A stretch of DNA of 32,819 nucleotides from a virus. Of this stretch, positions 18,030 through 26,571 are shown piece after piece (position 1 is the first letter of the stretch; each line of letters opens with the position of its first letter). Where the stretch lies: the IMG/VR virus record IMGVR_UViG_3300017917_000013, positions 1-32,819 of that record. One strand, 5' to 3'. The translations under genes and the position numbers were made by a program. The notes beneath the pieces are model-generated. The model ran no database searches. It was not told the origin of the DNA and saw only the letters and a program-made list of their open reading frames with translations.

Positions 18030-18658
18030 TATGCTTCTTCCAGTGTTACCGAGACATTCCAAAGATCATGATTTGTTCTTCCACGTTTTACAACATCATA
18101 CGTGAAATTGCTAAAATATACTTCAACTATTTGATTATATTCAACTAGGTGATCCATATCTTCTTCTGTTTTACCAAAATTATTATATTTGTCATATGCT
18201 AAAAACATCCAGAATGAGCCTTTGTGTGTTTCATACCAATCTAAAAGTTCAACTGCACCTGCACCACCATCTACAGTATATGAAACAATAGTATTATCCA
18301 TTCCAGATGCACCATTAGAATCAAAATATGCTACGCTATCGTATGCTCTAGATGGAAGATTTGTCCAATTAAATGATATAGTATTTTTATCTGCAATATG
18401 ATACGACCTCATATTTCCATTAATCATTCTTTGTTTTTGCTCTATTCTAGTTGGTATAAATGAAAGTTCAGACCTATTGTGATCAGATAATATTAAAAAT
18501 TCATTTGTTCCTCCAGTAGTTAGCGATGGATCTGCTCCGACTTCTTGTCCAGTTGGTATATAAATTCCATCTACCAAGGTTCCAGGATTATTTGACCAAG
18601 CAATAGCCTGTGGCCTACCATACTTTTTACGACCAACCATGTATTGTGCTGTTGCCAT
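18029..18658 (-). CDS. distal-tail-like protein
   Basis: 209 residues. It directly follows the tape measure gene (TAATG overlap) and precedes the hub, the position of Dit-type distal tail proteins in siphoviruses. The sequence is beta-rich with many aromatic residues (KNTISFNWTNLPSRAYD, GSFWMFLAYDKYNN) and ends with a strand (LWNVSVTLEEA) typical of tail tube-like folds. It would form the ring connecting the tail tube to the hub. The identification rests on order and fold-like pattern, not on a diagnostic motif. Confidence 0.6.
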   Translation of the reverse strand: MATAQYMVGRKKYGRPQAIAWSNNPGTLVDGIYIPTGQEVGADPSLTTGGTNEFLILSDHNRSELSFIPTRIEQKQRMINGNMRSYHIADKNTISFNWTNLPSRAYDSVAYFDSNGASGMDNTIVSYTVDGGAGAVELLDWYETHKGSFWMFLAYDKYNNFGKTEEDMDHLVEYNQIVEVYFSNFTYDVVKRGRTNHDLWNVSVTLEEA

Positions 18659-21600
18659 TATCTAATACCCCTAATTCTTTGAGAGTCAATCTTTTTAATT
18701 TCAGACATTACCGTTCTTGCAATATCGTCTGCACTATTATTGCTTCCCTCAACGTTAACGCTTAAACTATAATTATACACTGGACTAGATGGTATATTGC
18801 CATTATTAATAGAATTCATAGTTCCTACACCAAGTGAGTCAACAGCACTCTTTTTAATAACATACTCTCCTGCTGTTAACATTGCAGGAATTCTATCTGT
18901 TCCTCTAGATAATCCACCAGTAGCAAAGTATTTAGGAACGATTCCTCCAGTATTGAATCCCCAAGCCTGACCAACATTTTTTGGAACTGTTATTTTTGTT
19001 CCATTAGATGTAAATGTTGATGTAGTGGACGATCCACCAAGAGAAGACGCTGCATTTGATGATGCAGTTCCAATTTCACTCCATAGCCCCTTAACCCTCT
19101 TTAGAGTATCTTCAATATTTTTTAATGCATCGTTATATTCTGTTGATCTAACCTTTGCACCATCTACACTAAGTTGTATATCGTTCCATTTTTTACGTTG
19201 TACCTCAATTGCTTCAAGTTCTTTATCAAGTTTAGCCTGTAATGGTGCTATAGAGTTTACTTGATAATTATAGTTAGCATCCTGTAATTTTTTAATTTCT
19301 GCAAGCACTGGTATTTGTTTTTGTTCAAGAACATAAATTTGTTCAGATATATCGTATAACTTTTCTTCAATTTGAACTCTTGTTAATCCACCAGGACTTC
19401 TTAGTCCAGTCAGTTCTGCATCCCTTGCAGATTGCAATGCTTCTAAACTTCTCTCTTTTGCTGCTTGTGCTGCTGCCTGTCTTTGTTCTTGTAATGCTTG
19501 TGCTGCTAAGGCAATATCTCCCTCTACTAAAGCATTAACAATTGAAAGTTTTTCTTTTTCTTGTTCGGCAATTCTACTATTAATATCATATATTTTTGTT
19601 AACGCTTCTTCTTGATCGTTATATTTTTTATTAATTGCATCTGCTGCTTTATCAATCAGTGATAAATCATGGTTTAGTATTGTTGACTGTTCATTTAATA
19701 GTGCAATTGGCCTATCATAATTAATTTCAATATCACGTTGTTTTGTTTCAATTAATTTTTCATTAGCATCAATTAATTTATTTACAGCATCAATTTGTGG
19801 TTGATAAACATTTCTTGCTTCTCTTTCAAGAACATCGTAGTATTCTTGAGCCATGTCTATTTGTTCTTTAACATACTTTGCTGGATTAATTTCTGCAAGC
19901 GTTGCCTTTTCTTGTGTTCTAAGATTTCTTAGTCCTACAATTATTCTGTCAACCTCTTCTTTGCTCTTACCACTTGCTAAAGCAAGAGCCACCTGCTCAT
20001 TTGTAACAATAGATAATGCTTCTGCTGCAGATAATCCAGCAGCCTTTAGTTCTATAAACTTAGCACTTTGTGCCTTTAGACCATCAACCTGTTGTTGATA
20101 CCCATCTTCTAACTCTCCAATAACTGCTTCATTAAGTGCTGCTGCTAACTTTTTACCATCTTTAGTTATTGACACAATTCCATTTTTAATAGTAATAAAC
20201 TTCTTTTGAATTGCAGGATCTAAATCACCAACAAAATCAATAAAGTCTTGATTTACCCCTTGTCCTCTAAGTTGTTGGTTAACACCTTTAAATATTTTAA
20301 TATCTCCGCCAGACTTTGAAAGAACTCTTCTTAATTCTTCAAGACCGCCAGTAGCCTTAATTGCTGCATCTCTTGTTAATTTTAATCTCTTTAGAAGATC
20401 ATCTAAATATGTTAATCTCTTACCTTGTTCTGGAGTCTCTGTTGCTCCAGATGGGGCCTTAACTGCAGCCAGATCAAATCCTTTAGCAATATATTCTGGA
20501 ACTGACATATTGGCAGCCTTTGCTGCTGCAATTACATTTGGATCATTTGCTGCTATCTTATAATTAACAAATAAATATTTGCTTATTGTAGATTTACCCT
20601 GACTTAAAACATCAAAGTCTTTTGCAAATGCACCAAAGTTATTTGGATCTTTTACTGCTAAATCAAGAACTTGTTCCTTTGTTAGTGTGTCTGGTTGGTC
20701 GGCAATAACTCCTAATGCTGCAGTTGCGGTTGCTAGATCTTGTACCCCATCCGTTTTAACATCTAATGTAATTCCATATTGTTGTTTAAAACTTGCAAGA
20801 GCATTTAAACCTGCTAGATCATCTTTTAAATCTGCAGAGTTGCTGTTAATATAATTTAACATGTACTCTCTAGTTTGTGTTGGAGCACTATCACCAAATT
20901 TACCAAATACCTGTTGTAGAGTTTCTAATTCAGCAAATCCATGCTGTTTAATAAAAAAGTCAATTTGTTTTTGAGCATTATCTGAACTTGATACAAAAGT
21001 TGCAAGATCAATAATTGATGCTGGGCTTAACCCATTGTCTGAGACAAAACCAATTTGTAAAGTTCTTCTCATATTTTGATCTGTTACCTTTAACAAATCC
21101 TGTTGTGCAGCATCTGCTAATAATTTAGTTCCAGCAGATGCGTCTTTAAATTTAGTGCTTGCTGCATTTGATATAGAAGTATTAAATGTTTTATCATCCA
21201 TAGCAGATGATAGTTTAATGATGTCTGCAAGGCTTTGACTGTTTGCTTTATTTAATTCTGCAATATCGCTTTTACGTTTTGCTTGTAGATCATTAATCTC
21301 TTTTTCGGTTTTTGCAATTTTAATTTTTTTATCATACTGTTCATTAATTGCATCAATTAGTTGTTGATTTTGACCTATAGATTCAATTCCTAACTGTACT
21401 GCTGCTGCATCTAATTTTGCATTTGCTGCTTTTGCTTTATTTTGATCATACGCTGCTTTTACTATTGCCCCTGCGCTTAATACAGCAAGTGCTGCAGCAA
21501 CTGGAGCACCTACACCTGTTGCAAGGAGTGCGCCTGAAGCAGCAAGACCTGTAGTTCCAGCAAGGGTTGTTGCAGTTCCACCTGCAGTGACTTCACGCTT

Positions 21601-24600
21601 TCTTCTATTTCTAGCAAAATCAAACTGTGACTGAACATTTTTCATGCTTTCTTTTTTAATATCTAAAGCAACCTTAAGAGGATTCTTTTCTAAGTTTTCT
21701 CCATTTGGACCAACTAATTGATTTATAGTGGCAGTAATATTAAGTGGTATTGCATAACTTCCTAATTCTTCACCAAGGGCGGAGGCAATACTTGCTGCTT
21801 GGTCTGTAGATATCGCTCCTTGCAATACAGCCTGACTTAAGTTAGTTCCTAATATTTTACCAATTTGTTCTGTAGAAAATTGTTGCTTAATTAGTCCTTC
21901 AACATCTGACAGTATTTGTTTTCCTGTATCACTTTGTAAAACATTCTGACCAAATTTTCTTTGTTCTTCTCCCAATGGGTTTAAAAGATTTTGTCTCTTT
22001 CTAGCCTGTATTTCTGAAGCACCAATCTTTCCAGATATCATAGATAGATCTCTAACCCTATCTGCTGACATTGACATACCCTTTGCTAGTTTAACTCCTT
22101 CTTTTCTAGCATCATTTATATTTTTGTTAAACTTATAAATCATTGCTGCACCAGCAAGCATGCTTGCAATGAATATATTTAGTGGATTAGTTAACATTGG
22201 AGCAATTGAGGCAATAGCGGATATACCCATCATTGTGTTTCCTAGTGCCATGTTGCCAGTCATATACCCTGCCATAGCACCCATTCCTGCAACACCTGCT
22301 ATTGGTCCTGCTACTGATCCAACTCTTTGTGCTCTTTGTGCTCTCATTTCTCGTTTTTGTTCTTTTGAAGTTTTTGTAACTTCATTAGTTGTCTTTGTGT
22401 TTTTATTATTTGATTCTGTATTATTATCTATTGAATTAGTAAAATTCTTTAATTGTGATGCTGGAATAACTATTCCTGATGCAAGTTGTCCATATTGCTG
22501 ACCTGTAGGTAAATTTGTAAAAGGAGCATTTGCACGTCCTGCTACCCAAGGGGCCATTCCAAGGGCATTTCTAGGAACGTTTCTTACTCTAGGTGCATTT
22601 TCTTTAGGTGTTAATAAAGTATCTTTTGAAGATGCTGTCTTAATACCCTTTGGTTTTTTAACTGCAGGTATTGGTTTTATCTTACCATTTTTCTCAAGAA
22701 CTTCTGTTGGTTTTACTGCAACAGATCTTGATGCAAGATATCTATTATGTATACCTTTAAAGTCAATATCAAGACCACCAGCCAATCTTGATTTTATCTT
22801 TGCTGCTTCAGATGGAGAATACCCAGAATTAGCAAGTGCCTTATCTGCTTTCTTTAATAGATCATTAACTTCTTTTTTCATTTTTTGATCAAATTCTTCT
22901 GCAGTCATATTGTTCATTAATGGTTCTATCTTATTAGAGAAGTCTTTACTTGCTCCTCCTGCATCAACAATTCTAAGATTTTTCTCTATCATTTCTTGCA
23001 TTGAAGACATCTTTGTAGAAGGTTCTCTTACTCCAGAAGCCTTATCATAAATATATGCATTACCTGGATCTACAACATACCTGCCAGACATATTGCCAGT
23101 TTTAACATCTTTGTCTCCACGAAGAGCAGATGCAACCAATTGTTTTACCATGTTGTCTGCATTAAACTTTTGTCGTTTCATATTTTCTTCAGTAAATCTT
23201 GAATCAAAATCAGATATTAATACTGGAATTTGTCTTCCTGGATTATTTGGATCTTGTGTCATACGGATTTGTCCTTGTGGTGATACAAGTCCGTGTAGAT
23301 TTCTTGCTAAAGCATTTGCTTTCATTTCTGCTTTTGCGTTTTCTAAAGTTTCAAATCCTTTAACAAAAACCTTTCTATCATTTATGCGATACTCACCATC
23401 TAAATTCTTAATTGTTCCACCACGTCCAGAAGATTTATTTATTCTTTCTCCTAGATTCACAGATTGACGAATAGCCGATGGGCTGTCTTTGCTGCCAAGC
23501 AATGTAAGTGGTTCTAATGTTTTGTAAAAACTATATTGAGTTTTTGCTCTTAATCTTGCAAGAGCCCTCACACCTTTTGCCTGATATGCTCCACTAGCAT
23601 ATTTTTCAGAAATTCCTAAAGTTTTAAGAAGTTTTTTATTAGTGGAAATTTTTTCATCAAATAATGCTAAATTCATAACGCTCTTAAGTTCTGAAGGTGT
23701 TACTGGATGTCTTCCTGATTTTACAAACTCAAAGTCTTTCTTTAGTCTATCAATTTGATTTCTATTAATGCCTGGTAAAAGTGATGGATTTTTATCTACT
23801 GCTAATAATAATTTTTCAAACGATCCTTGAGTTCCTGACTTAATTCTATTTGGATCTATTCTATTTAGATAGTTGTTTAATCCCTTTACATCTCTAACCA
23901 CTTCTCCTTCAAACCATTTATTAGATGGGTTTGCTGATTTTTTAATGTGAGACTCATTCATTCCAATGAAGTTTCTTGCTTCTATGTCAGTTAAACCTGC
24001 TTCACGAAGTGAAACATATAATCTACTCATGTTTTCAGATTTTACTGGCTTGCCAGTAATTGGATCTCTATATCCAGCAGACCTTCTTTGTTTTGATATT
24101 GCAGGATTGGCGTCTGATCCAGTTCTTTCAGTTTTTTTAGTTGCTCTTGAGGCAGTAAGTCCTAGAGAAGTTGCTGTTATATTTTTTGGCTTTCTTCCCT
24201 TTCTATTTGAACCTTCTCCTTCAGGATTAACAAGATCTCTCATTCTTCTAGATATTTCTTGTGCTCTGCTTGGATTTTCATTAATTGCAGCATTAATTCT
24301 ATTAATTATTTCATCTGGTTTAGATTTTACTGGGAAAATAGAACCGTCAAAAGAGATTGAGCCATTAGCAGTTTTTGTTGCTTTAGTAACTCCAGTAGTT
24401 CCTCCTTGGAAGCCTTGCAATTTTCCATTAACCATTGCATCAATAATTGGTTGGAATCTAGGATCTTGTGCAACAGGTGCTGGAATTACTGCTTCTCCAG
24501 GTGTTAACATAGATGGAACAGTGTCTTCGTTTCCTGTTCCTGGAACATAGGTTGCTCCTCTTGCAAACTTCTTTGGTGTTCTTCCACCTGTCATTGGCAT

Positions 24601-26571
24601 CATCATTCCTGGATTTGCCCTTGCAAAGTTTGTCGCTGCTACAGTAGCATCAACATATGCTTTGCGTAATAAAGATACAGCAGTTGCTTCTGCAGTAAAT
24701 GATTGTGTTAATCTTGTATGTGCTTGGTTTAATGATGCTGCAACAGTTGCTGACTCTAACTGCTCTGCATTTAAATATTGTGTTTGTTGAGCAAGAATAT
24801 TTGTATTGGTTCCAGCCCTTAAAAATCCAGAACGCATTGTTATAAATAATTTAATAATATTTGCTACACCGTTTGCAAGTAAACCAAAAGTCATTAATAA
24901 TACTGGACCAACTGCTCCTATTAATGTTGATGCCACTACAATAAATTTCTTTGTACCATCTCCAAGACTATTAAACTTATCTAAAAGTCTTCCAACAACT
25001 TCAACTACTGGAGTTATTGCTTTTAAGAATGTTTCTCCTATTGGTGCTATTGCTAACTTAAGTTTTTCTACAGACTCTCTAAAGTTAGTTCCTACAGCAT
25101 TTTCTAAAACTCCCAATTCTCGTTCAGATAGGATTGCAAGTTCTTCAACTGAAGATGTTGCAAGTTGTAAAACTCTGCTGGCCTGTGTTCCATCTTTTGT
25201 AACGTTTTGGAACAAAGTAGATAAACGTGAAAACTGGAACTTACCAAATAATTGCTCAATAGCACGAGCACGGTTTAATGGGTCAAGTGTATCTAATGCT
25301 CTAGAGAAGTCAATTACGGTATTTCTAATATTACCTTTGTTTGTTTCTACTATCTTATTTATATTAATTCCAAGTTTACCGAGGAATCCTGCTGCCTTAT
25401 CAGATGGATTAATTAATGAAGCAAGACCAGACTTAAGTGCGTTAGCACCTTCCGATGCATTAATTCCACCCTCTTTCATAGCGGTTAAGAAAAATGCTAA
25501 GTCTTCAACTGATCCACCTAATTGCTTTACAACTGGTCCTGCTTTTGGAATTGCTTCAGTTAAGTCTTCGATAGATACTACAGTCTGGTTTTCAACTGCG
25601 TTTAAAAAGTTAATTTTAGATGCAAGATCTTCTGCTGCAATACCAAATGCATTTGTAACTGAAATTGTAGTTTCTAATGCTTGAGCCTGTTCTACACCAC
25701 CAAGAACTGCAAGTCTAGTTGCTCCCGCTACCTGTGCAGTAAGTTCTGCTCCAGTCTTACCCATTGCTGCTGCTGATGCAGCCATCTCTATGGTTTTAGT
25801 AACTGCAACGCCATACTTTGTAAATTCTTTAGCAAGTTCTTGTACATCTGCTAATGCCTTATTTGTTTCTTCTTTTGTTGTAAACATGTCTCCGTAAACA
25901 CGCTTAAACTTAATTGCCTGTGCTTCAAGATCCATGAATACTTTAGATGCTGCACCACCAAAATACATAAGCGGAATTGTAAAACCAACCATTAACTGGC
26001 GACCAGCCCACTGAGTATTCTTACCAAAATTTAATAAATTTGTAGAGCCTTGTTTTAATAATTGATTTAAGATTGCTTGCTTTTGTGCTGCAATAGCAGT
26101 CTTGGTTGCATAATTTTCCATGTCAAGTGCTGTTGGAGTAATTGACATTGCCTTAATTGCACCAGACGCATCACGACCCATTTTGATGTATTGGGTTTGC
26201 ATCTTTTTAACACGTTCTTCTGCCACTTGGCTAATTGTGTTAAATTCTTGTTTAAATAATTTTCCAAATGTTCTTGTTGATCCGCTTGCATAACGGAAAT
26301 ACTCACGCATTGAAAGTTTATTAGTCTCAAGTGCGTGAGTAAAGGATTCTGTTGAACTTCGTACTAGCCCCATTGAGGCTTGGAATTGACCTGTTGCGTT
26401 TATAGCATTTAAAAGATTAGTCTGCAATCCCTTTTGGGCTGCTGCTGCTGCAGAACTACTTTTTGCTACAGATGAATGGAAAGTTGCTAATTGACGTTGT
26501 AGATTTTTTAATTCTGCCAACGCTGCTGACGTATCAATATGTACGCCAATATTAGCATTTACATCAGCCAT
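18658..26571 (-). CDS. tail tape measure protein, very long, with inserted domain
   Basis: 2637 residues. A TP901-type tape measure core is at about 190-480 (EFTKYGVAVTKTIEMAASAA, AVENQTVVSIEDLTEAIPKA, GGINASEGANALKSGL). Hydrophobic segments lie near 543-578, 1416-1480 and 1665-1706. Two copies of a tape-measure motif (GTxDxxPxMLTxGExVI) are at 680-696 and 2557-2572. Residues 840-1285 are unlike the rest, polar and globular, with a possible kinase-like core at 1030-1185. Residues 2235-2500 are coiled coil. The protein sets tail length and is expected to line the tube and reach the host envelope at infection; at roughly 0.15 nm per residue the tail would be near 400 nm, less any globular part. 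A ribosome site (AGAGGTG) precedes the ATG. Confidence 0.95.
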   Translation of the reverse strand: MADVNANIGVHIDTSAALAELKNLQRQLATFHSSVAKSSSAAAAAQKGLQTNLLNAINATGQFQASMGLVRSSTESFTHALETNKLSMREYFRYASGSTRTFGKLFKQEFNTISQVAEERVKKMQTQYIKMGRDASGAIKAMSITPTALDMENYATKTAIAAQKQAILNQLLKQGSTNLLNFGKNTQWAGRQLMVGFTIPLMYFGGAASKVFMDLEAQAIKFKRVYGDMFTTKEETNKALADVQELAKEFTKYGVAVTKTIEMAASAAAMGKTGAELTAQVAGATRLAVLGGVEQAQALETTISVTNAFGIAAEDLASKINFLNAVENQTVVSIEDLTEAIPKAGPVVKQLGGSVEDLAFFLTAMKEGGINASEGANALKSGLASLINPSDKAAGFLGKLGININKIVETNKGNIRNTVIDFSRALDTLDPLNRARAIEQLFGKFQFSRLSTLFQNVTKDGTQASRVLQLATSSVEELAILSERELGVLENAVGTNFRESVEKLKLAIAPIGETFLKAITPVVEVVGRLLDKFNSLGDGTKKFIVVASTLIGAVGPVLLMTFGLLANGVANIIKLFITMRSGFLRAGTNTNILAQQTQYLNAEQLESATVAASLNQAHTRLTQSFTAEATAVSLLRKAYVDATVAATNFARANPGMMMPMTGGRTPKKFARGATYVPGTGNEDTVPSMLTPGEAVIPAPVAQDPRFQPIIDAMVNGKLQGFQGGTTGVTKATKTANGSISFDGSIFPVKSKPDEIINRINAAINENPSRAQEISRRMRDLVNPEGEGSNRKGRKPKNITATSLGLTASRATKKTERTGSDANPAISKQRRSAGYRDPITGKPVKSENMSRLYVSLREAGLTDIEARNFIGMNESHIKKSANPSNKWFEGEVVRDVKGLNNYLNRIDPNRIKSGTQGSFEKLLLAVDKNPSLLPGINRNQIDRLKKDFEFVKSGRHPVTPSELKSVMNLALFDEKISTNKKLLKTLGISEKYASGAYQAKGVRALARLRAKTQYSFYKTLEPLTLLGSKDSPSAIRQSVNLGERINKSSGRGGTIKNLDGEYRINDRKVFVKGFETLENAKAEMKANALARNLHGLVSPQGQIRMTQDPNNPGRQIPVLISDFDSRFTEENMKRQKFNADNMVKQLVASALRGDKDVKTGNMSGRYVVDPGNAYIYDKASGVREPSTKMSSMQEMIEKNLRIVDAGGASKDFSNKIEPLMNNMTAEEFDQKMKKEVNDLLKKADKALANSGYSPSEAAKIKSRLAGGLDIDFKGIHNRYLASRSVAVKPTEVLEKNGKIKPIPAVKKPKGIKTASSKDTLLTPKENAPRVRNVPRNALGMAPWVAGRANAPFTNLPTGQQYGQLASGIVIPASQLKNFTNSIDNNTESNNKNTKTTNEVTKTSKEQKREMRAQRAQRVGSVAGPIAGVAGMGAMAGYMTGNMALGNTMMGISAIASIAPMLTNPLNIFIASMLAGAAMIYKFNKNINDARKEGVKLAKGMSMSADRVRDLSMISGKIGASEIQARKRQNLLNPLGEEQRKFGQNVLQSDTGKQILSDVEGLIKQQFSTEQIGKILGTNLSQAVLQGAISTDQAASIASALGEELGSYAIPLNITATINQLVGPNGENLEKNPLKVALDIKKESMKNVQSQFDFARNRRKREVTAGGTATTLAGTTGLAASGALLATGVGAPVAAALAVLSAGAIVKAAYDQNKAKAANAKLDAAAVQLGIESIGQNQQLIDAINEQYDKKIKIAKTEKEINDLQAKRKSDIAELNKANSQSLADIIKLSSAMDDKTFNTSISNAASTKFKDASAGTKLLADAAQQDLLKVTDQNMRRTLQIGFVSDNGLSPASIIDLATFVSSSDNAQKQIDFFIKQHGFAELETLQQVFGKFGDSAPTQTREYMLNYINSNSADLKDDLAGLNALASFKQQYGITLDVKTDGVQDLATATAALGVIADQPDTLTKEQVLDLAVKDPNNFGAFAKDFDVLSQGKSTISKYLFVNYKIAANDPNVIAAAKAANMSVPEYIAKGFDLAAVKAPSGATETPEQGKRLTYLDDLLKRLKLTRDAAIKATGGLEELRRVLSKSGGDIKIFKGVNQQLRGQGVNQDFIDFVGDLDPAIQKKFITIKNGIVSITKDGKKLAAALNEAVIGELEDGYQQQVDGLKAQSAKFIELKAAGLSAAEALSIVTNEQVALALASGKSKEEVDRIIVGLRNLRTQEKATLAEINPAKYVKEQIDMAQEYYDVLEREARNVYQPQIDAVNKLIDANEKLIETKQRDIEINYDRPIALLNEQSTILNHDLSLIDKAADAINKKYNDQEEALTKIYDINSRIAEQEKEKLSIVNALVEGDIALAAQALQEQRQAAAQAAKERSLEALQSARDAELTGLRSPGGLTRVQIEEKLYDISEQIYVLEQKQIPVLAEIKKLQDANYNYQVNSIAPLQAKLDKELEAIEVQRKKWNDIQLSVDGAKVRSTEYNDALKNIEDTLKRVKGLWSEIGTASSNAASSLGGSSTTSTFTSNGTKITVPKNVGQAWGFNTGGIVPKYFATGGLSRGTDRIPAMLTAGEYVIKKSAVDSLGVGTMNSINNGNIPSSPVYNYSLSVNVEGSNNSADDIARTVMSEIKKIDSQRIRGIR
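22717..24054 (-). other. globular insert in tape measure protein with kinase-like core
   Basis: Covers tape measure residues about 840-1285. The core (1030-1185) shows, in order: a Gly-rich stretch (SSGRGG, 1047-1052), Lys1071 in KVFVKGF, Glu1082 on a following helix (AEMKANALAR), a helix NMVKQLVASAL, then a loop with Asp1155 and Asn1160 (DVKTGN, D-x4-N) and an Asp at 1168 or 1176 in a strand-turn-strand. This is the order of ATP, metal and catalytic residues in protein kinase, aminoglycoside phosphotransferase and HipA-like folds. Residues 850-990 before it are helical and unrecognised. Activity is not shown; the fold call is an inference. Confidence 0.4.

Follow-up and report, generated by a model that had tools for sequence, protein, structure and literature searches.

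A predicted kinase-like domain in a tape measure protein of a phage known from a viral metagenome record

The window analysed here is the whole of the 32.8-kb virus record IMGVR_UViG_3300017917_000013, in which one intact minus-strand open reading frame (ORF) at 18658-26571 encodes a tape measure protein (TMP) of 2637 amino acids. Residues 1030-1318 of this protein form a domain that, judging by its structural model, almost certainly has a kinase-like fold. The ORF is a genuine TMP, as indicated by matches to PF10145, TIGR01760 and phrog_10030 and by its tail gene neighbourhood, with a capsid gene upstream and minor tail protein genes downstream. The initial annotation, made from the sequence alone, had therefore placed the domain in the correct type of protein. 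Among cultured phages, the TMP and capsid protein are closest to those of Streptomyces and Gordonia phages, and for this reason the host is likely to be an actinobacterium. TMPs sit inside the tail and are ejected ahead of the DNA at infection. They are usually seen as rulers, TMP length setting tail length, and as DNA channels; the enzymatic domains of known TMPs are mostly cell-wall hydrolases. The TMP ORF and the elements of its kinase-like domain are as follows.

18658..26571, minus strand: TMP ORF, 2637 amino acids; PF10145 PhageMin_Tail, 97.3 bits (residues 245-443); TIGR01760, 100.3 bits; phrog_10030 TMP, E 3e-97
22618..23484, minus strand: predicted kinase-like domain, modelled residues 1030-1318; AlphaFold2 model, fold matches to CtkA, CotH, PI4K and HipA, alignments of 52 to 64 sequences
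23392..23430, minus strand: Gly-rich turn between strands 1 and 2 (DSSP), residues 1048-1060; G1049 and G1059 invariant
23359..23361, minus strand: K1071, strand-3 Lys (VFVK); present in 64/64 sequences
23326..23328, minus strand: E1082, helix-C Glu; present in 64/64 sequences
23092..23121, minus strand: putative catalytic loop RGDKDVKTGN, residues 1151-1160; R1151, D1153, D1155 and N1160 invariant
23062..23070, minus strand: DPG, residues 1168-1170, a DxG motif of the DFG type with both D and G invariant; RVDAGG is its counterpart in the alignment with other phage kinase-like domains

Fold of the kinase-like domain

The domain was modelled with AlphaFold2 on an alignment of 23 homologues (A1), giving for residues 1030-1318 a pLDDT (predicted local distance difference test) of 84.7 and a pTM (predicted template modelling score) of 0.81. 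According to DSSP, the model begins with three strands, the third of which (E37-43) carries K1071, followed by a helix (H47-64) with E1082, two further strands, and a short and a longer helix. The loop RGDKDVKTGN, which comes after helix H109-122, leads into a short hairpin, the DPG motif and then five helices. The initial annotation had described a kinase-like layout in residues 1030-1185 (23017-23484). This interval lies in one intact ORF but was drawn too short: the domain reaches past residue 1185 to about residue 1290, because the helices of the C-terminal lobe follow, and the confident part of the model stops near residue 1290 (window ~22702).

Comparison of the model with the PDB gave kinase-fold entries throughout the listed top 50 of both rankings. 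The best match was CtkA (Z 11.1 over 198 amino acids, 4.3 A), followed by CotH (Z 10.9), LepB (9.7), PI4KII-alpha (9.5), HipA (9.4), PI4KIII-beta (9.1), actin-fragmin kinase (9.0) and VPS34 (8.9). The adjacent TMP module (residues ~850-1030, pLDDT 81), taken through the identical pipeline, gave a best Foldseek E of 0.97 and a best Z of 6.2, with no kinase listed. With a bilobal kinase fold and five catalytic residues in the right elements, the model would place the domain in the kinase-like fold superfamily, where it appears most like HipA/CtkA, CotH and the PI4K-type atypical kinases. A kinase-like fold was what the initial annotation had proposed, and it had named two observations that would speak against it, a predicted structure of another kind and free variation of the key residues among homologues. 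Both were looked for; the predicted structure is kinase-like and the key residues are conserved, as described below.

Catalytic residues and predicted chemistry

Alignment A1 was assembled without selection by motif, through BLAST and the TMP N-terminus. Among the 91 Lys, Glu, Asp and Asn residues of the domain, seven are invariant in it: K1071, E1082, D1153, D1155, N1160, D1168 and N1198. Five of these seven had been picked out by the initial annotation (hypergeometric p = 4.5e-7, or ~1e-6 when its choice of "1168 or 1176" is allowed for), and their conservation is a fair test of the pattern because the residues were named before any alignment existed. All the named residues are present within residues 1030-1185. 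K1071, E1082, D1155, N1160 and D1168 were each found in 64/64 distinct homologues, a set that was fetched in part by patterns containing K1071 or D1153/D1155 and is unbiased only for E1082, N1160 and D1168. The anticipated Gly-rich turn is likewise present, with G1049 and G1059 invariant. The proposal of an Asp at 1168 or 1176 can be narrowed to D1168, which lies in the DxG motif; D1176 is variable (D in 34/64 sequences) and was rejected as the DFG-type Asp. The domain is under purifying selection, with a median ratio of nonsynonymous to synonymous substitution (dN/dS) of 0.15 over 86 pairs.

In the proposed mechanism, the phosphates of ATP would be bound by the Gly-rich turn together with K1071, which E1082 would hold in place, N1160 and D1168 (of DxG) would bind Mg, and D1155 may act as the catalytic base or the positioning Asp of the D-x4-N loop. 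The domain would then most likely be an ATP-Mg-dependent phosphotransferase, and the conserved, correctly placed site makes it quite probable that it is an active enzyme. A kinase-derived fold could also be kept without catalysis, because it binds something or adds to tail length: inactive domains are common among kinase folds, and any insert could act as a spacer in a protein whose length sets that of the tail. We rate this pseudokinase or spacer explanation very low. All catalytic positions are invariant in 64 divergent sequences, whereas pseudokinases usually lose at least one, and dN/dS is ~0.15 although the rest of the domain is just ~35% identical.

The nature of the reaction is a separate matter. 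The structural neighbours include, beside protein kinases, the lipid kinases PI4KII-alpha, PI4KIII-beta and VPS34, as well as LepB; phosphatidylinositol is common in the membranes of actinobacteria, the likely hosts judging by the TMP and capsid relatives, and kinase folds are known to switch chemistry. A kinase-fold enzyme that transfers AMP, or that phosphorylates a lipid such as phosphatidylinositol, would agree with these facts. Fold likeness does not, however, predict substrate; the best matches, CtkA and HipA, are protein kinases, even if the Z differences of ~1.5 leave the candidates nearly tied, and the canonical D-x4-N and DxG motifs are those of ordinary phosphotransfer. Such other chemistry or substrate is accordingly regarded as unlikely, and ordinary ATP-Mg-dependent phosphotransfer is retained as the prediction.

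Relatives and the variable cassette

The kinase-like domain lies in a variable region of the TMP, which is bordered by more conserved parts.

24682..26571, minus strand: N-terminal part of the TMP, residues 1-630, conserved (65-89% identity across 80 viral loci)
22342..24411, minus strand: variable cassette region, residues 721-1410; recognised by length contrast and mosaic behaviour
23503..24018, minus strand: upstream cassette module, residues 852-1023; invariant His/Asn motif SHI..W..NxYxN, no fold match
21445..21546, minus strand: hydrophobic stretch, residues 1676-1709, downstream of the cassette; found by hydropathy scan, a possible membrane segment

A search with the TMP N-terminus found 584 related stretches, the best 80 of which (65-89% identical) were fetched. 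The kinase-like domain is present in 25 of these 80 loci, 29-41% identical to that of the window, and absent from the others, while a profile search of viral contigs with A1 found 405 stretches with the domain in one collection. Relatives were reached only through the TMP N-terminus and later through the family alignment: the window's domain as a single sequence gave no match among viral contigs, and tblastn searches of 50,697 phage genomes with it and with a consensus-like member found no relative. The genome collection search yielded no genome with the domain. The sole TMP relative from a GTDB genome (contig CAINGU010000031.1, 34% N-terminus identity) lacks it; this contig belongs to a metagenome-assembled genome labelled cyanobacterium, to which a phage contig from a lake metagenome may have been wrongly assigned. 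The domain is also missing from four TMPs of cultured phages; one of the four is that of Gordonia phage GodonK, and three are detectable relatives of the window TMP.

From the TMP core to the later part of the protein there are 361-518 amino acids in TMPs without the domain and 624-1274 in those with it. In a tree built from 55 TMP N-termini, the domain switches between present and absent seven times, at least six of these changes being forced by well-supported branches, and the direction of change is not told by the tree. The nearest TMP neighbour of the window, whose N-terminus is 89% identical, has no kinase-like domain. Among kinase-bearing TMPs, identity in the N-terminus and in the kinase-like domain are weakly related (Spearman 0.28), and pairs with more than 90% identity in the N-terminus can share just 38% in the domain. 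Because presence changes repeatedly on the TMP tree and divergence of the domain hardly tracks that of the TMP, these sequence comparisons indicate that the domain is an optional, horizontally swapped cassette and not part of the ruler.

The same observations bear on a role in virion assembly. Here the kinase would work on its own TMP or on tail proteins while the cell is dying, regulating for instance chaperone release or tail assembly, and would simply end up in the particle. Its residence in a late-made structural protein accords with such a role, as does its strict association with this carrier: in the loci fetched, 104/104 kinase-bearing ORFs include N- or C-terminal parts of a TMP, and no stand-alone copy was seen. 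Such a role is nevertheless less likely, since sister TMPs manage without the domain, the closest of them with 89% identity in its N-terminus. One would also expect an enzyme of tail assembly to evolve together with its tail, whereas this domain is swapped largely independently of the other parts of the TMP. We therefore give assembly a low probability.

The PI3/PI4-kinase family produced just one weak bacterial match, too little for a comparison with the domain. PDB sequence matches to designed helical bundles and PKC C2 regions (E 0.015-10) were judged to be chance, as was a LepB_N Pfam match in 1/57 cassettes (E 7e-4), which was not repeated in a scan of the kinase domains alone; LepB is, all the same, a structural neighbour of the domain. 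A viral structure library pointed instead to GodonK, whose gp67 gene comes directly after the portal gene. When the kinase-like part of gp67 was itself used as query, 19 phage records yielded relatives. Among these are further portal-adjacent proteins from Gordonia phages (Mareelih gp77, Sixama gp73) and large proteins annotated as ADP-ribosyltransferases, one of them noted as a "phage particle associated protein". A profile of ten gp67-type domains matched the TMP domain with E 1.6e-5 and a score of 43.1; 300 column shuffles gave scores of at most 28.1 and the reversed profile gave 15.6. The same profile matched that of HipA with E 1e-4, a result equalled in 0/200 shuffles. These sequence profiles show that the TMP domain and the kinase-like domains that cultured phages carry in virion-type proteins are homologous.

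A coincidence between the predicted residue pattern and the model, in a domain without a kinase fold, is most improbable in the light of this homology. The lack of a Pfam or PDB sequence match and the modest TM-scores are what such a coincidence would produce, but it leaves unexplained the kinase-only match lists, a Z of 11, the invariance of the predicted residues, the shuffle-tested homology to phage kinase-like domains and the negative control on the neighbouring module.

Several further observations concern the gp67-type proteins. GodonK gp67 itself (L234:26522-30961) is a hypothetical protein of 1479 amino acids with a kinase-like domain at residues ~85-315, a DGHHR (ParB/Srx-like) motif and a C-terminal part that is ADP-ribosyltransferase-like by eye, so that it appears to combine several effectors in one protein of a cultured phage, without being annotated as such. 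Yersinia phage fHe-Yen8-01, Dolphis and ST4 encode ADP-ribosyltransferase-annotated proteins with an unannotated kinase-like domain. In several of these phages, the ORF two genes downstream is annotated as a NUDIX hydrolase or as a nucleotide phosphatase.

Other modules were found in the cassettes. The SHI module (SHI..KxW..NxYxN) upstream of the kinase-like domain occurs with or without it; its confident model (pLDDT 81) has a predicted beta-beta-helix start and then a helical bundle, and the start of the motif resembles HNH/His-Me finger nucleases by eye only. In one relative (L031:5253-5700) the cassette starts with a HIGH-type nucleotidyltransferase (PF01467, cytidylyltransferase-like, E 4e-5, over the cut-off), and phrog_3041 cytidyltransferase matched one member of the cassette set (E 5e-13). 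This is an unusual domain for a TMP and is also expected in a second relative (L034). In another (L131:6204-6773), a stretch upstream of the kinase-like domain is ADP-ribosyltransferase-like by eye (FFRGTG ... RTSSWSS ... ESERLFGGKF), a resemblance unsupported by profile, PDB or phage searches. Motifs of the PGxGxxDTVPxMLTPGEAVIP type flank the variable part of the TMP (window 24457-24570, residues 668-705, and residues ~2542-2590), with extra copies in some relatives, and may mark recombination or packing boundaries of cassettes.

Comparison with known systems and proposed role

The gp67-type domains of GodonK gp67, Mareelih gp77, Sixama gp73, the "ADP-ribosyltransferase toxin" of fHe-Yen8-01, Pseudomonas phage Dolphis gp117 and Aeromonas phage ST4, homologous to the TMP domain, have in common with it GG..x..DG.xYVK, the helix-C Glu, a GLxxP-like turn and an xVDxGG motif. 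They differ in carrier, being portal-adjacent or ADP-ribosyltransferase-annotated proteins where the window type is found in TMPs, and in the catalytic loop, which is NWD..(x5-8)..DN in the gp67 type and RxDxDLxxGN in the TMP domain. HipA and CtkA (PF07804) are alike in fold (Z 9.4 and 11.1, respectively) and are linked through the gp67-type phage domains; the window domain has no PF07804 match and is part of a structural protein, not of a toxin-antitoxin gene. CotH, PI4K type II, PI3K/VPS34 and the actin-fragmin kinases are alike in overall fold (Z 8-11), but no sequence relationship to them was detected and their carriers and hosts are different.

Polyvalent-protein kinases of phages are thought to be delivered by the virion and to modify host proteins at infection, and are capsid-associated (Iyer et al. 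2017, PMC5512222). They form a distinct Ser/Thr/Tyr kinase branch that has lost the C-terminal subdomain, occur mainly in prophages of Verrucomicrobia-Chlamydia and Bacteroidetes, and are further characterized by a conserved Glu before strand 2, a Gln in the last N-lobe strand and a His-Asp insert; "tape measure" is absent as a term from that paper (PMC5512222). The TMP domain shares with them the idea of a virion-delivered kinase, while its model keeps the helices after DxG. TMPs that bear enzymatic or signalling motifs have been described, and in Streptomyces contractile injection systems TMP-derived or TMP-like proteins (Tme, Sle1) serve as exchangeable effector carriers (PMC11126660, PMC13277306); these are likewise exchangeable domains on TMP-like carriers, and PMC13277306 mentions no kinase. 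The open-access literature yielded no description of a TMP with a kinase-like domain; papers in it that join both topics were unrelated.

The further suggestion of the initial annotation, that an ATP-using effector may accompany the DNA into the host, is favoured because the domain is optional, swapped and homologous to phage virion-type kinase-like domains. As part of the TMP, it would reach the envelope or cytoplasm of the host when the phage infects, and would there modify a host target, a protein or possibly a lipid, favouring takeover or blunting defence. Delivery into the host, argued from TMP biology, is somewhat probable, and the account as a whole, in which an optional, swapped kinase-like TMP domain is a virion-carried phosphotransferase effector that is delivered and modifies a host target, is held with moderate confidence.

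Several points weigh against this account. The domain has no Pfam, NCBIfam, PHROG or PDB profile match to any named kinase family, and Pfam scans of the window domain and of 23 and 52 members gave no match, PF07804 included. Direct hhalign comparisons were not significant (HipA E 0.26; CotH 0.22, with a set of only 6 sequences; APH 0.08); in the HipA alignment, which over its full length does not reach significance, RGDKDVKTGN falls opposite GNNDAHGKN. Foldseek template modelling (TM) scores are low (0.2-0.35) and root-mean-square deviations over the alignments are large, so the detailed similarity is limited. The argument for delivery comes from TMP biology only. Finally, a folded domain of this size fits the lumen of a siphophage tail poorly; it may travel unfolded and then refold.

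A broader reading takes in the other exchangeable domains of the cassettes, namely the HIGH-type nucleotidyltransferase, the ADP-ribosyltransferase-like stretch and the SHI module beside the kinase-like domain. It is conceivable, though we lean slightly against it, that the TMPs of this large uncultured, probably actinobacterial phage family are an effector delivery platform, whose cassette enzymes are injected with the DNA and modify the host before phage gene expression.

The sequence signature K...E...RxDxDLxxGN...DxG, already found in 405 loci of one viral metagenome collection, can be used to find such domains in viral metagenomes. The finding of a complete, conserved kinase-like site in the TMPs of some phages, and its absence from those of sister phages, suggests that regulatory enzymes are brought into the cell by the tail before gene expression begins, and turns the question of how a siphophage acts on its host in the first seconds of infection into one that can be tested.
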